A stretch of DNA of 36,419 bases from Candidatus Peribacteria bacterium. GTDB lineage: Bacteria > Patescibacteriota > Gracilibacteria > UBA1369 > 2-02-FULL-48-14. The translations under genes and the position numbers were made by a program. The notes under the pieces are model-generated. The model saw nothing but the letters and a program-made list of their open reading frames with translations. It had not been told where the DNA came from and did not search any database. The stretch covers positions 1-36,419 of the forward strand of contig CALRGE010000004.1 in NCBI GenBank assembly GCA_943357175.1. Reading direction: 5' to 3'. This document shows positions 7,994 to 13,977 of the stretch, piece by piece. How positions within the stretch are numbered: the stretch's first letter is position 1; each line of letters begins with the position of its first letter.

Positions 7994-8773
7994 CTATTTG
8001 TAATCGGGCAAAAAAGTCCAAAAAGACTGATGAATATTTCTCAAAGATTCGGCAATGTGCGGCTCTTCAATAATAATTCCAACAATGTCTCGATAAATTG
8101 AAACTATGGCAACCTTGTCACCATAGATATTTATTTCGACAGGAATATGTACATTATTTAACATCTTCAAAACCCGATTTTGTTCTTTACGATGCTTATA
8201 TGCCATGTCTGAAGACTCAGATTTATTTAAAATTCCAAAATATTTAATTTTCTTTTTAGCTCGACGAATTGTGTAATCCCAAAGCCAATTATTAAAATCT
8301 TTTTGACTTGATACCGGAAAAAAATATTGAAAATCACCCATGCCATATATATTTACTCCCGGAGTTTTCAACGTATCTTCATAAATTTCTTTCATTCCCT
8401 CAAGCCCCTGGAAAAAGTGAATTTTTGGTTGAGCAAGAAGAGGATTTCTAATCTTTTCAAGATCCGGCAATATGCTGAGGAGTTTTTGTTTTTGGTTTTC
8501 TATTTCTTCTTTTCGATGATCTAAAATTGAAAGAATCGACTTGGGAGGGCGCGAATTAAAATATCTAACACTTCCCTTTGTGTATTCTTGCATTATTCTT
8601 TTTTCAATCAATGTACTTAAAATATTGTAAGAATGACTTCTTTTAAGTCCACTTTTTTTGGCTAGTATTGATGCCGGCTGAGCACCTAATTCGAGACAAG
8701 CCAGATAAAGTTTTGCTTCGAGGTCGCTGAGACCGAACTCAGTTAAAATGGAATTAATATCAAAATCTGCCAT
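7994..8773 (-). CDS. TrmB-family transcriptional regulator
   Basis: A 259-residue DNA-binding protein. The N-terminal winged helix-turn-helix (about residues 8-75: LTEFGLSDLEAKLYLACLEL, then ASILAKKSGLKRSHSYNIL) is the TrmB signature. A short coiled segment (about 83-105) leads to a C-terminal effector domain with the PKIHFFQGLEGMKEIYEDTL start seen in this family. TrmB proteins, best known in archaea, sense sugars or related metabolites. Here the adjacent downstream gene on the same strand encodes a sugar nucleotidyltransferase, a likely target. A shared 12-bp motif lies 44 bp upstream of that gene and 47 bp upstream of this one, consistent with auto-regulation plus control of the neighbour. 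The effector is unknown. Confidence 0.85.
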   Translation of the reverse strand: MADFDINSILTEFGLSDLEAKLYLACLELGAQPASILAKKSGLKRSHSYNILSTLIEKRIMQEYTKGSVRYFNSRPPKSILSILDHRKEEIENQKQKLLSILPDLEKIRNPLLAQPKIHFFQGLEGMKEIYEDTLKTPGVNIYGMGDFQYFFPVSSQKDFNNWLWDYTIRRAKKKIKYFGILNKSESSDMAYKHRKEQNRVLKMLNNVHIPVEINIYGDKVAIVSIYRDIVGIIIEEPHIAESLRNIHQSFWTFLPDYK

Positions 8774-8819
8774 TATAAATAGCTATGAGAATTGAAAGAA
8801 TATGAAATCATTTTTTAAA

Positions 8820-8831
8820 TCAGATTGCAAG
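8820..8831. repeat. 12-bp motif, inverted copy of 7974-7985
   Basis: TCAGATTGCAAG here is the exact reverse complement of CTTGCAATCTGA at 7974-7985. The two copies lie at nearly equal distances (47 and 44 bp) upstream of the TrmB-type regulator and of the nucleotidyltransferase. A shared operator is the simplest reading; chance is possible in AT-rich DNA. Confidence 0.4.
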
Positions 8832-8849
8832 GCTTTTGTTGCAGGTATA

Positions 8850-8885
8850 AATATATTGACATGAACTACATAATCAATATATTAT
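8850..8885 (+). promoter_or_regulatory. Promoter overlapped by a perfect inverted repeat (probable operator) before the RHH/zinc-ribbon genes
   Basis: TTGACA (8856-8861) is a perfect -35 and TATTAT (8880-8885), 18 bp on, a good -10. A perfect 10-bp inverted repeat, AATATATTGA (8850-8859) and TCAATATATT (8874-8883), covers part of both elements. A protein bound there would block RNA polymerase. The small RHH protein encoded 29 bp downstream is the obvious candidate. The divergent TrmB regulator is the alternative. Confidence 0.6.
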
Positions 8886-8913
8886 CTATGTAATATACAT
8901 ATCGTTTCCATAT

Positions 8914-9072
8914 ATGCCCATTGTGAACTTTTCAATTCCAAAAAATCTTGATCTGCGAATTCAAGCAACAATTAAAGAAAAAGGCTTTGCTAGTAAGGCC
9001 GAATTTTTTCGTTACTGCGCTGTTCGATATATTGACAGCGACAAAGATAGAAAGAATAATCTAGCAGGATGA
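8914..9072 (+). CDS. Small ribbon-helix-helix (CopG/Arc-type) DNA-binding protein
   Basis: A 52-residue ORF with the plan of an RHH repressor: a short N-terminal strand (VNFSIPKNL, residues 4-12), helix 1 (DLRIQATIKEKG, 13-24), a turn with a small and a charged residue (FASKAEF), then helix 2 (FFRYCAVRYIDS). The C-terminus is charged (DKDRKNN). The ATG at 8914 follows the promoter's predicted start site by about 22 nt with no Shine-Dalgarno. The stop is 13 bp before the first zinc-ribbon gene, so the two are almost certainly co-transcribed. RHH proteins bind inverted repeats as paired dimers, and such a repeat overlaps the promoter. I infer auto-repression of the whole four-gene unit. No toxin-like partner is present. 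Confidence 0.75.
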   Translation: MPIVNFSIPKNLDLRIQATIKEKGFASKAEFFRYCAVRYIDSDKDRKNNLAG

Positions 9073-9085
9073 TCTCCCCAAACGG

Positions 9086-10747
9086 ATGATAAAAAACTGT
9101 AGTGCATGTGGTCAAAACTTCAACATTGAAGATCAAGATTTTGAGTTCTTGAAAAAGTTTGATGTTCCAGCTCCCAGCCACTGCCCGGATTGTAGAAATC
9201 AAAGACGATATTCTTTTCGTTGTGATAGAAATTTTTATCTTCGCAATTGTGACATGTGCCAAAAAGCTATCGTGTCTATTATTTCGACCGATAAACCGCT
9301 GAAAGTTTTCTGCAATGAGTGTTATATGAGTGATAAATATGATCCATTGGATTATGGAATTGATTTTGATTTTAACAGATCATTTTTTGAACAATTTGCA
9401 GAGATGAGAGCGAAAATTCCACGAATTTCTATTTATAATACACAGAACGAAAACTCAGATTTTACGGGGCACGGATCTAAGAATAAAAATTGTTATATGT
9501 CGACATCGCTAATAAATTCGGAAGATGTTTATTACACGGATTGGGGACATTCATGTAAAGATTCTATGGATTTATACATCTGCCAAAGAATGGAAAAATC
9601 GTATTTTTGTTGTGGTAGCGAAGACTGCTATCATTCTGCGTATTTGGAAAATTGTATGACGGTTAATTTTTCTTATTTATGTTTCGACTGCAGAACTTCA
9701 AATAATCTAATTGGCTGTGTTGGACTGCGAAGAAAGGAGTTTATGGTTTTGAATGAATCCGTGAGCAAAGAAGAGTTTGAAAATACTTTAAGCAAATTGA
9801 ATACCGATCCTATTTTTAACGGGGAATTTAGAAGGAGGTATGAACTGTTAAGGCTTTCCGTTCCGGTCAAAAATTATTTTGAAATGAATACTGAAAATTG
9901 CTCCGGCGATTATATTTATAATTCAAAAAATGCATCTAATTGTTTCAATGTGAAAGATGTTGAAGATGGTCGATATTCATATGAAGTTGGAAAATTAAAA
10001 GATGCAATGGACTGCACTCGTGTTGCAGATGGTGAATTTCTTTATGAATGTAAGGCAATAATTGATCTGAAATTTAGCAAATTTTGTAATCTTTGTTATC
10101 AATCCAGCAATTTAGAATATTGTGACAGTTGCCAAAGTTCACATGACTCTTTTGGATGCATGGGATTAAAATCAAATCGTTACTGCATTTTAAATAAACA
10201 GTATTCGAAAGAGGATTATGAAAGTTTGAAAGCGCGGATTATTGAACATATGCGAGCCTCAGCGAGTGCCGACGGAGGCCGGAAAACTGGCGAATACGGT
10301 GAGTTTTTCCCAATGAATTTGAGTATTTACGGCTACAATGAAACGAAGGCACAGGAATTTTACTCACTTACAAAAGATGAAGTTTTAGCGAAAGGTTTGA
10401 AGTGGAAAGATATTGATCCAAGGCAATATCAGCCTCAAAGTTACAAAATTCCGGATACAATTAAAGAAGTTCCTGATTCGGTTGTGGGCGAAATTTTAGG
10501 GTGCGAAATTTGTGGGAAAAATTACAAAATCATTCCACAAGAATTGAAATTCTATCGTGAAGGCGGGTATCCAATTCCTAAAAAATGCCAGGATTGCAGG
10601 CATAAATATAGAATGTCACTTCAAAACCCACGAAAACTTTGGGATAGGAATTGCATGAAATGTGGAGTTACGATGAAATCGACTTATGGACCAGAGCGTA
10701 AAGAAAAAGTATATTGTGAAAGTTGTTATTTAGCTGAGATACAATGA
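9086..10747 (+). CDS. Cysteine-rich multi-zinc-ribbon protein, paralogue 1
   Basis: 553 residues with about 37 cysteines, mostly as CxxC pairs. An N-terminal ribbon (CSAC, then CPDC, residues 5-35) is followed by a second (CDMC ... CNEC, about 55-79) and a block ending FDFNRSFFEQF shared with the paralogues. The Cys/Asn/Tyr-rich centre has two copies of a GCxGL...SKEEYE-type unit (about residues 210-230 and 350-375). The C-terminus holds two more ribbons (CEIC ... CQDC and CMKC ... CESC). There is no signal peptide or membrane segment, so it should be cytoplasmic. I know this only as a CPR-type zinc-ribbon family without assigned function. Metal storage, redox buffering or nucleic-acid binding are all open. 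It is first of three tandem paralogues and carries a GC-rich insertion at residues 391-399. Confidence 0.8.
   Translation: MIKNCSACGQNFNIEDQDFEFLKKFDVPAPSHCPDCRNQRRYSFRCDRNFYLRNCDMCQKAIVSIISTDKPLKVFCNECYMSDKYDPLDYGIDFDFNRSFFEQFAEMRAKIPRISIYNTQNENSDFTGHGSKNKNCYMSTSLINSEDVYYTDWGHSCKDSMDLYICQRMEKSYFCCGSEDCYHSAYLENCMTVNFSYLCFDCRTSNNLIGCVGLRRKEFMVLNESVSKEEFENTLSKLNTDPIFNGEFRRRYELLRLSVPVKNYFEMNTENCSGDYIYNSKNASNCFNVKDVEDGRYSYEVGKLKDAMDCTRVADGEFLYECKAIIDLKFSKFCNLCYQSSNLEYCDSCQSSHDSFGCMGLKSNRYCILNKQYSKEDYESLKARIIEHMRASASADGGRKTGEYGEFFPMNLSIYGYNETKAQEFYSLTKDEVLAKGLKWKDIDPRQYQPQSYKIPDTIKEVPDSVVGEILGCEICGKNYKIIPQELKFYREGGYPIPKKCQDCRHKYRMSLQNPRKLWDRNCMKCGVTMKSTYGPERKEKVYCESCYLAEIQ
10256..10282 (+). other. 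27-bp GC-rich in-frame insertion in paralogue 1
   Basis: This stretch encodes ASASADGGR between HMR and KTGE, where paralogue 3 reads HMKKTGE without interruption. It is 21/27 G+C inside an AT-rich gene and has a GCCTC/GAGGC inverted repeat near its ends. It looks like a small palindromic insertion tolerated in a loop. Confidence 0.5.
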
Positions 10748-12324
10748 TAAAAACTTGCAAAAACTGTTCTGAGAATTTTGAAATTACGGATGATGATTTA
10801 AAGTTTTATGAGGATATTGGGCCTGATTTTAATGGGAAAAAATATCCTATTTCAGCTCCGAATTTATGTCCAAAGTGTAGAGAAATAAATCGTTTGCAGT
10901 TTCGTAATTTGAAAAATCTTTACAAACGTAAGTGTGACTTTTCCGGCAAAGAAATTATTTCCGGTTACAGTGAAAAAATAATATCACCTATATATCATGC
11001 TTCAATATGGTGGTCGGACAAATGGGATCCGATGGATCATGGAATGGATTTAGATTTAAATAGATCATTTTTTGAGCAATTTAAAGAATTATTTGAAAAA
11101 GTACCACTACTACATTTGTATTGGGTAAATAATGAAAATTGTGAATATATAAATGGGGCAGCAAATTGCAAAAACTGTTACCTTTCCTTTAATATCGACC
11201 AATGTGAAAGCATGTATTACGTTACAAATGCGCAAAAATCACAATTCTGTTTCGACTGTTATTCAATATTTGGCTGCGAACTTTGCTTTCAGTGTGTTGA
11301 TTGTGAAAATTGCTACAATTTATTTTACTCCGAGCGCTCTAGCTCTTGTTCTGACAGTTATTTTTTAATTGACTGTAAGCGTTGCAAAGACTGTATTGGC
11401 TGCGTAAATTTGATAGACAAACAATATTGTATTTTCAACGAACAATTTTCAAAAGATGAGTATGAAAAAAAGAAAAATCAAATCTTAAATGAGAGAAATT
11501 ATGAGGAAATTCATATAGATATATTAAAAAAAAGCTTGGCATTTCCAAAGAAATATTATTACGGACATTCAAATGAATCTTTTTCAGGAAATAATATTAG
11601 AAATGCTAAGAATAGTTATGCCTGTTTTGAATCTTATGAGATTGAGAACTGTAAATATTGTGACTACATTTTTCATGCAAAAAATTGTATGGATTATAAT
11701 ATTTTCGGTAATCACTCCGAGTGGATCTACAACAGTATTGCTACCGGAATAAACTGCTCAAATAATATTTGTTGCATGGGCTGTTGGCAAAGTTCCAGCA
11801 ATAATTTTTATTGCAACATGATAAATGGCTGCACAAATTGTTTCGGATGCAGTGGTTTAAAAAAGAAAAATTATTGTATTTTGAACAAACAATACACGAA
11901 GGAAGAGTATGAGATTCTAGTTCCAAAGATCATACAAAAAATGATTGAAAATGACGAGTGGGGAGAATTTTTTCCAAAAGAATTATCACCATTTAGTTTC
12001 GAAGAATCAATCGCCAGCGACTACTATCCTGAACAGAAAAATGAACATATTGTTAAAGCTGGGAAAGAAACTGATGGTTGTATTGAATGTGGAAAACATT
12101 TTAAAGTGATTCAACAGGAAGAAAATTTCTATAATAAGAACAATTTATCACTTCCAAAAAAATGTCCAAAATGTCGAGATAAAGCTAGAATGAAGTTACG
12201 AAATCCTAAAAAATTATGGACGCGTGCGTGTTCAAAATGTGGAACTGGAATTCAAACCAGCTATTCCTCCGACAGACCTGAGACTGTATACTGCGAAGCG
12301 TGTTATTTGGCTTCTGTATACTAA
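10744..12324 (+). CDS. Cysteine-rich multi-zinc-ribbon protein, paralogue 2
   Basis: 526 residues with about 43 cysteines, the most of the three. Its start overlaps the paralogue 1 stop (ATGA). The N-terminal ribbon (CKNC ... CPKC) and both C-terminal ribbons (CIEC ... CPKC and CSKC ... CEAC) are intact. The second N-terminal ribbon is degenerate: CDMC is replaced by CDFSG and the distal CxxC is lost around SIWWSDKWD. The centre is especially rich in Cys-Asn-Cys-Tyr words (such as NCKNCYLSF and CVDCENCYNL) at roughly 20-residue intervals. That could suggest a repetitive, possibly beta-helical, cysteine-ladder fold; this is inference. Two GCxGL/NLxxKxYCIxN units repeat the architecture of the paralogues. 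Confidence 0.8.
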   Translation: MIKTCKNCSENFEITDDDLKFYEDIGPDFNGKKYPISAPNLCPKCREINRLQFRNLKNLYKRKCDFSGKEIISGYSEKIISPIYHASIWWSDKWDPMDHGMDLDLNRSFFEQFKELFEKVPLLHLYWVNNENCEYINGAANCKNCYLSFNIDQCESMYYVTNAQKSQFCFDCYSIFGCELCFQCVDCENCYNLFYSERSSSCSDSYFLIDCKRCKDCIGCVNLIDKQYCIFNEQFSKDEYEKKKNQILNERNYEEIHIDILKKSLAFPKKYYYGHSNESFSGNNIRNAKNSYACFESYEIENCKYCDYIFHAKNCMDYNIFGNHSEWIYNSIATGINCSNNICCMGCWQSSSNNFYCNMINGCTNCFGCSGLKKKNYCILNKQYTKEEYEILVPKIIQKMIENDEWGEFFPKELSPFSFEESIASDYYPEQKNEHIVKAGKETDGCIECGKHFKVIQQEENFYNKNNLSLPKKCPKCRDKARMKLRNPKKLWTRACSKCGTGIQTSYSSDRPETVYCEACYLASVY

Positions 12325-13977
12325 ATGTCTGAAATCAAACAAAACTGTCGTATCTGCTCAAAAGAATTCGTTGTGAATGAATGGGAGCAAGCACATTTGC
12401 AAAAAATGGGTGGGTTTCCACTGCCAACTTTGTGTATTGATCACAGACATCAAAGAAGATTTGCTTATAGAAATGAGAGAAAATTATACAAAGATAACTG
12501 TGATTTTAGCGGAAAAGATATTATTTCAATTTATTCGCCTGATAAAAATTTAAAAGTTTATTCACAAGAAATTTGGTGGAGTGACAAATGGGATGGACGC
12601 GATTACGGAAGAGATTTTGACTTTAATCGTCCATTTTTTGATCAATTCCAAGAGCTAAGATTGGCTGTTCCAAGAATGTCTCTTTTGAATTCGAATGGTG
12701 AAAATAGTGAATATTGTAATTTAACAACAGACAATAAAAACTGCTATTTAGTTTTCGGTGGGGACTTTAATCAAGATGCTCTTTATTCAATATTTTGTTT
12801 TTATTCACGAGATGTTGCGGATCTTTATTGGGTTAATAAATCGGAACTTATTTATGACTCAATTGATTGTGCAAATTGCTATAATATCAAGCATGCTCAA
12901 AATACTTATAACTGTCGTGATGGCTCCTTTTTGTTTGATTGTAGAAATTGTGAATATTGCGTTGGATGCGTAGGTTTACGTGCGAAGAAATATCATATTT
13001 TCAATCAAGCATATTCACCGGAAGATTATGCAAAAAAAGTGCGAGAATTAAGGTTGGATACTTGGAGCGGAGTACAAAAATTTAAGATCGAATTTGATAA
13101 ATTTAAATTGAATTTTCCTATGCTTTTTGCGAGCATTGTGAATTGCGAAAACTGCAGTGGTGATAAAATTAAAGATGCTAAAAATTGTGAAAATTGTTTT
13201 GATATTTATGGGCCAGTTGAAGACTGCAAAGATGTATTCTTGGGCGGATGGAGTTTAAAAGATGCACTTAGTTCAAGTCATATTGGGCATAAATCAGAAA
13301 TTGCATATGAATCCATTGGAATTCCTGGGGTTAATGTCACAGCATTCTCATCATTTGTTTGGTTTGGAAGTAATGTTTATTATTCAGATACGGTTGCTTA
13401 CTGTAATAATATTTTTGGCTGTACTAACCTACACCATGCTGAATACTGCATTTTAAATAAACAATACTCTAAAGAGGAGTATGAAAATTTGCGTGCCAAA
13501 ATTATTGAGCACATGAAAAAAACCGGTGAGTGGGGTGAGTTTATGCCAATGAAAAATTCACTTTTTGCATATAATGAGACTGTCGCTCAAGATTTCTTTC
13601 CTAAAAGCAAAGATGCTGCTTTATCCGAATGCATTAAATGGCTTGATGAAGAAGTTCGAGAGATAAAAACTCAAGATATTCCAGACTCAATTCAAGATGT
13701 AAAAGATGATATTACACAAGCAACCTTCACTTGTGAAAAAACGGGAAGGCCTTATCGAATTGTTCCCGCGGAACTAAAATTATATCGTCAAATGGGAATT
13801 CCAATCCCACATTTTGCTCCTGAAACTCGAAATGAAATGAGAATTAACTCACGAAATCCTCATAAAACTTGGAGTCGTAATTGTATGAAGTGTTCCAAAC
13901 CAATCAAGACAAGTTACTCTACTGATCGGCCGGAAAAAGTATACTGTGAAGAATGTTATTTAGCTGAAGTCTACTGA
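12325..13977 (+). CDS. Cysteine-rich multi-zinc-ribbon protein, paralogue 3
   Basis: 550 residues, starting at the very next base after the paralogue 2 stop. It has the shared plan: N-terminal ribbon (CRIC ... CIDH, where His replaces the last Cys), RDFDFNRPFFDQF block, Cys/Asn-rich centre with two GCVGL/GCTNL...SPEDYA/SKEEYE units, and the C-terminal CMKC ... CEECYLAEVY ribbon. The penultimate ribbon has lost most ligands (CEKTG and FAPETR in place of CxxC pairs), and the second N-terminal ribbon is degenerate as in paralogue 2. Loss of different ligands in different copies suggests specialisation, perhaps subunits of one complex. The gene converges with the DUF1003 gene, overlapping it by 7 bp. 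Confidence 0.8.
   Translation: MSEIKQNCRICSKEFVVNEWEQAHLQKMGGFPLPTLCIDHRHQRRFAYRNERKLYKDNCDFSGKDIISIYSPDKNLKVYSQEIWWSDKWDGRDYGRDFDFNRPFFDQFQELRLAVPRMSLLNSNGENSEYCNLTTDNKNCYLVFGGDFNQDALYSIFCFYSRDVADLYWVNKSELIYDSIDCANCYNIKHAQNTYNCRDGSFLFDCRNCEYCVGCVGLRAKKYHIFNQAYSPEDYAKKVRELRLDTWSGVQKFKIEFDKFKLNFPMLFASIVNCENCSGDKIKDAKNCENCFDIYGPVEDCKDVFLGGWSLKDALSSSHIGHKSEIAYESIGIPGVNVTAFSSFVWFGSNVYYSDTVAYCNNIFGCTNLHHAEYCILNKQYSKEEYENLRAKIIEHMKKTGEWGEFMPMKNSLFAYNETVAQDFFPKSKDAALSECIKWLDEEVREIKTQDIPDSIQDVKDDITQATFTCEKTGRPYRIVPAELKLYRQMGIPIPHFAPETRNEMRINSRNPHKTWSRNCMKCSKPIKTSYSTDRPEKVYCEECYLAEVY

Follow-up and report, generated by a model that had tools for sequence, protein, structure and literature searches.

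A toxin-less RHH gene with a candidate tandem 11-bp operator in front of a putative Cys-rich protein operon of a Candidatus Peribacteria bacterium

The nickel regulator NikR binds inverted repeats whose arms are separated by a long spacer, an arrangement that resembles the one put forward for the present locus in a preliminary description. In Escherichia coli, autorepression by the ribbon-helix-helix (RHH) antitoxin RelB has been proven; the operator reaches from the −10 element into the leader and contains four repeats between −10 and +17 (PMC2812701). This operator, relO, is composed of four hexads ([A/T]TGT[A/C]A), two per strand, and the dimers bound to it lie on a single face of the helix. 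In the absence of its partner toxin RelE, RelB binds the operator weakly (PMC4803016). TrcR of Anabaena is a small stand-alone RHH repressor that has no toxin, it binds a site over its own −10 element and controls a regulon of further genes via one 8-bp consensus (PMC10272220).

We analyzed 36,419 nucleotides of a Candidatus Peribacteria genome (assembly GCA_943357175.1, contig CALRGE010000004.1, positions 1–36,419), hereafter the window. The locus is built around a short RHH gene, which shares its intergenic region with one leftward TrmB-family gene and is followed by genes for Cys-rich (zinc) proteins; the TrmB-family gene was absent from the preliminary description. The main features are as follows.

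7994–8773, minus strand: divergent TrmB-family regulator of 259 aa (Pfam TrmB, 34.5 bits, cut-off 25.6)
8850–8883, no strand: reported inverted repeat AATATATTGA-N14-TCAATATATT, with perfect arms, the left one unconserved
8856–8885, plus strand: promoter of the RHH gene, TTGACA (8856–8861), 18 bp, TATTAT (8880–8885), matching the consensus at 11 of 12 positions
8914–9072, plus strand: RHH protein of 52 aa, by sequence comparison an antitoxin DNA-binding domain that lacks the toxin-binding tail
9086–13977, plus strand: three paralogous Cys-rich proteins in a putative operon behind the RHH gene (open reading frames; Pfam zf_Tbcl)

The predicted RHH monomer contains two helices (residues 10–23 and 28–51), corresponding to the two helices of the fold; the strand forms only in the dimer. 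Its PDB structure matches are mostly RHH proteins (NikR, Arc, ParD and CopG), all of them weak (E of at least 0.56), which can be expected for a query of 52 residues. The protein has no Pfam family match, two members of its family scanned against Pfam and NCBIfam gave no family match, and a sequence profile search of the PDB returned no RHH relative. The closest curated profile is that of NikR (E 0.023, residues 4–41, 14.7 bits against a cut-off of 111). Like the top structure matches, this similarity is confined to the RHH domain; different from NikR, the window protein has no metal-binding domain.

Few close homologues of the RHH protein emerged from a search across the class and a scan covering 84,980 genomes. 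We examined 11 homologous loci. In all 11, an RHH antitoxin of 82–87 aa with the same core is followed by a RelE-like toxin gene (truncated in L177, where the contig stops); the toxin has a Pfam RelE match that stays below the cut-off. The window protein is 50–56% identical to its closest antitoxins, and its core retains 11 of the 12 residues that do not vary in an alignment of the ten complete antitoxins. The mean core identity between the window protein and the complete antitoxins is 55%, the antitoxins themselves share 48–58%. Judged by these core residues, the window protein belongs to the RHH antitoxin lineage of the 11 loci. However, it can be aligned only up to residue 44 of about 83, where it stops, and the C-terminal toxin-binding tail of the antitoxins is absent. 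No toxin gene was found directly downstream, four toxins of the homologous loci used as queries giving a best E of 0.55 in the window, and no remnant of the toxin or of the tail is detectable in the window. The gene next to the RHH gene encodes a Cys-rich protein, not a toxin. With both toxin and tail missing, the locus is not a complete RelE-type toxin–antitoxin operon, in which it differs from RelBE.

The preliminary description had assigned one strong promoter (TTGACA, 18 bp, TATTAT) to this region, and our scan bears it out. Positions reaching 11 of 12 consensus matches are rare in the 36 kb (only 8856, 9032 and 14664); at 8856, an alternative −10 element, TATATT at a spacing of 16, scores equally. 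The promoters of L177 and L178, the two closest homologues within the order, resemble that of the window from the −35 element to the ATG: TTGACAT, 9–10 bp, ATCAATATA, and AT-rich repeats. Related promoters, with a conserved operator-like array, also precede the RHH homologues of other lineages; the comparison supports the view that the RHH protein and the promoter before its gene belong together.

In the homologue promoters, direct repeats of 11 bp (about AATCMATAT) follow one another in tandem as far as the start codon; L184, for instance, has AATCAATAT-AT-AATCCATAT, and L190 has four copies. We trained a 9-position motif on nine homologue promoters, leaving out the window, L177 and L178. In the window it identified four candidate units, all on the plus strand.

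8872–8880, plus strand: candidate operator unit 1, AATCAATAT, 7.3 bits, at −42 from the start codon
8883–8891, plus strand: candidate operator unit 2, TATCTATGT, 4.7 bits, at −31, 11 bp after unit 1
8894–8902, plus strand: candidate operator unit 3, TATACATAT, 7.8 bits, at −20, 11 bp after unit 2
8905–8913, plus strand: candidate operator unit 4, TTTCCATAT, 7.4 bits, at −9, 11 bp after unit 3 and ending at the start codon

The four in-phase units (8872–8913) sum to 27.3, with P of 0.0005 against first-order shuffles, a value to be read with the small homologue set and the AT-rich sites in mind. Across the 36 kb and on both strands, the next independent array reaches 9.7. In a leave-one-out analysis of 11 promoters, the mean z is highest at period 11 (2.91) and near 0 at periods 10 and 12; periods 9 and 13 also score, raised by the self-overlap of ATAT words. 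For the window alone, three units at period 11 have P of 0.013. As far as sequence can tell, the window thus carries a candidate antitoxin operator of tandem 11-bp units, in phase from the −10 region to the ATG. Like relO, it comprises four repeats over the −10 element and the leader; different from relO, the repeats are direct.

The same comparison bears on the inverted repeat, which the preliminary description took for the operator: two RHH dimers, bound to the two 10-bp arms, would repress the promoter. The repeat is there, with perfect 10-bp arms (8850–8859 and 8874–8883) 14 bp apart, and the arms cover the −35 and −10 elements. In shuffles of the intergenic region, at least one perfect 10-bp repeat with a spacer of 0–30 occurred in 3.1% of cases (P of about 0.03), and one with a spacer of exactly 14 in 0.2%; in dinucleotide shuffles of the whole window, the mean number at spacers of 0–30 was 2.8, compared to the single one observed. 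The repeat is weak evidence of marginal significance, unremarkable in an AT-rich window. No second copy was found in the 1.23-Mb genome with up to three mismatches allowed, and the few matches in 38 relatives each carry two or three mismatches, showing no conservation. The half-sites, said to lie 24 bp apart on one face of the helix, are in fact 2.3 turns apart (24/10.5). Among the homologous promoters compared, the left arm is not conserved; the closest, those of L177 and L178, have CGAATCTTGA and CAAATCTTGA in its place and retain the −35 TTGACAT and ATCAATATA. The preliminary description had itself named half-sites lost from a conserved promoter as evidence against its proposal, and for the left arm this is the pattern found. 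The pattern that is conserved is direct, not inverted. We therefore regard the inverted repeat as a highly improbable RHH operator. An operator of the NikR type on this repeat was likewise rejected, since the protein has no metal domain and the arms are out of phase; the conserved sites of the window, different from those of NikR, are direct repeats.

The right arm overlaps units 1 and 2 of the 11-bp array. The repeat is mostly the promoter itself, and by its sequence it is most likely composed of operator unit 1, the −35 region and one unconserved left flank. The comparison across lineages thus corrects a tempting misreading of a perfect inverted repeat, and points to a different operator, which is probably the four direct repeats 11 bp apart. 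Four sites at this distance fit the helical phase, whereas two dimers 24 bp apart do not.

The explanation that we favor, and consider probable, is that an RHH protein derived from the antitoxin of a RelE-type system binds four tandem 11-bp sites and represses its own gene, perhaps together with the zinc operon. The RHH gene would have descended, along with its promoter, from a RelE-type toxin–antitoxin operon. By analogy with RelB, its dimers would line up along a single face of the DNA, with one site for each helical turn; they would span the region from the −10 element through the expected start site and the leader to the ATG, and would thereby repress transcription. Having lost the toxin and the toxin-binding tail, the protein would simply repress its own gene, and the zinc operon, which begins 13 bp after the RHH gene, may be repressed too, by read-through. 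Autorepression by the RHH protein, as the preliminary description had proposed it, gains partial support in this form from the array and the homologous promoters. All homologues are antitoxins of RelE-like toxins, like RelB a class with proven RHH autorepression in E. coli; the operator that had been named for autorepression, the inverted repeat, does not hold. Among the points against the explanation, RelE is missing here, while E. coli RelB alone binds weakly, and the RHH protein has no Pfam match. TrcR would be a parallel as a toxin-free repressor with its site over its own −10 element; in contrast to TrcR and its regulon, the window shows a single local array, and its RHH protein clearly derives from an antitoxin.

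The loss of tail and toxin, neither of which is detectable, would also suit a decaying remnant of a toxin–antitoxin operon that plays no present role. However, the four repeats have all been preserved, as have nearly all invariant residues of the core, and the core shows no excess divergence, which makes such a remnant distinctly unlikely. A more specific version of the repressor explanation is that promoter, tandem operator and antitoxin DNA-binding domain were captured without toxin and tail and now serve as the dedicated switch of a Cys-rich operon in a candidate-phyla bacterium; we put it forward tentatively, as a possibility on the weaker side. If true, it would show how a mobile toxin–antitoxin module can leave a working repressor and its operator in a reduced genome, where the two then take control of a host operon. 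It would also provide one RHH antitoxin family of candidate-phyla bacteria with a testable operator.

Two further promoter-like sites were observed around the RHH gene.

9032–9060, plus strand: additional promoter-like site, lying within the RHH gene, TTGACA, 17 bp, AATAAT, 11 of 12 matches
8850–8877, minus strand: weak leftward promoter-like site formed by bases of the inverted repeat and facing the TrmB-family gene, TTGATT, 16 bp, TATATT, 9 of 12 matches

The start predicted for the first site lies some 20 bp upstream of the first zinc gene; this promoter could drive the zinc genes independently, which would count against a simple control by the RHH protein. The RHH gene also contains one terminator-like hairpin (8983–9000), which together with a T-run lies within 8983–9010 and is of a kind expected 1.8 times by chance in 3 kb. 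It may be a chance occurrence, or else restrict read-through into the zinc genes, in which case it too would count against such a simple control.

From the second site, the inverted repeat may supply a weak leftward promoter for trmB. The symmetry of the repeat would then stem from two promoters that overlap and point in opposite directions (rightward TTGACA/TATATT, leftward TTGATT/TATATT) and not from a repressor site. The scan does match both orientations on the same bases, the related antitoxin promoters do without the left arm, and bacteria commonly have bidirectional promoters that are pseudo-symmetric (PMC12825309). Those promoters share one −10 element, whereas here each −35 element abuts the −10 element of the other; the leftward match is 9 of 12 only, and would place the start some 70 bp away from the TrmB ATG. 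Opposed promoters therefore appear somewhat unlikely as the source of the symmetry, though they would be compatible with the tandem RHH operator.

The divergent TrmB-family protein might itself bind the inverted repeat and control both directions. TrmB-like genes are repeatedly divergent to the Cys-rich family, and dyads lie just upstream of trmB paralogues and orthologues. Close orthologues of the window TrmB (49–53%) are present in ten genomes (L161–L168, L147, L148), eight of which contain exactly one copy each of the dyad TGTCAY-N6-RTGACA, located upstream of trmB. The window genome contains no exact copy of it, and within the intergenic region no match to the motif of these orthologues exceeds shuffles, so the conserved TrmB operator is missing here, and the inverted repeat is no recognizable version of it. 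The recognition segment differs little (KRSHSYN and KRGHTYN), which makes a wholly new TrmB site unlikely. Taken together, these observations render TrmB a very unlikely ligand of the repeat. The TrmB orthologues look like a single-target autoregulator whose site has changed in the window genome. One scan of the genome contigs with the TrmB protein gave no match. The second-best match to the orthologue motif, the dyad TGCAA-N8-TTGCA (8826–8843), was not above shuffles and was rejected.

Both TrmB-like regulators and Cys-rich proteins of about 550 aa are expanded in the order, with about 15 direct divergent pairs in the 39 genomes examined (window 7994–10747; L057–L073). Most trmB paralogues have one candidate dyad near TTGTCGAA-N3/4-TTCTACAA upstream, often near the gene start (L083–L111 and others); in some pairs it also lies over the −35 element of the divergent Cys-rich gene.

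The three Cys-rich genes of the window (9086–10747, 10744–12324 and 12325–13977) encode proteins with a weak treble-clef match, mostly below the cut-off of Pfam zf_Tbcl. Before the closest relative of the first one (60%, G002), we noticed by eye one small antitoxin-like gene with a PIN-like toxin, which is of a different type (L075, 10000–10750); toxin–antitoxin genes may settle repeatedly before the Cys-rich family.
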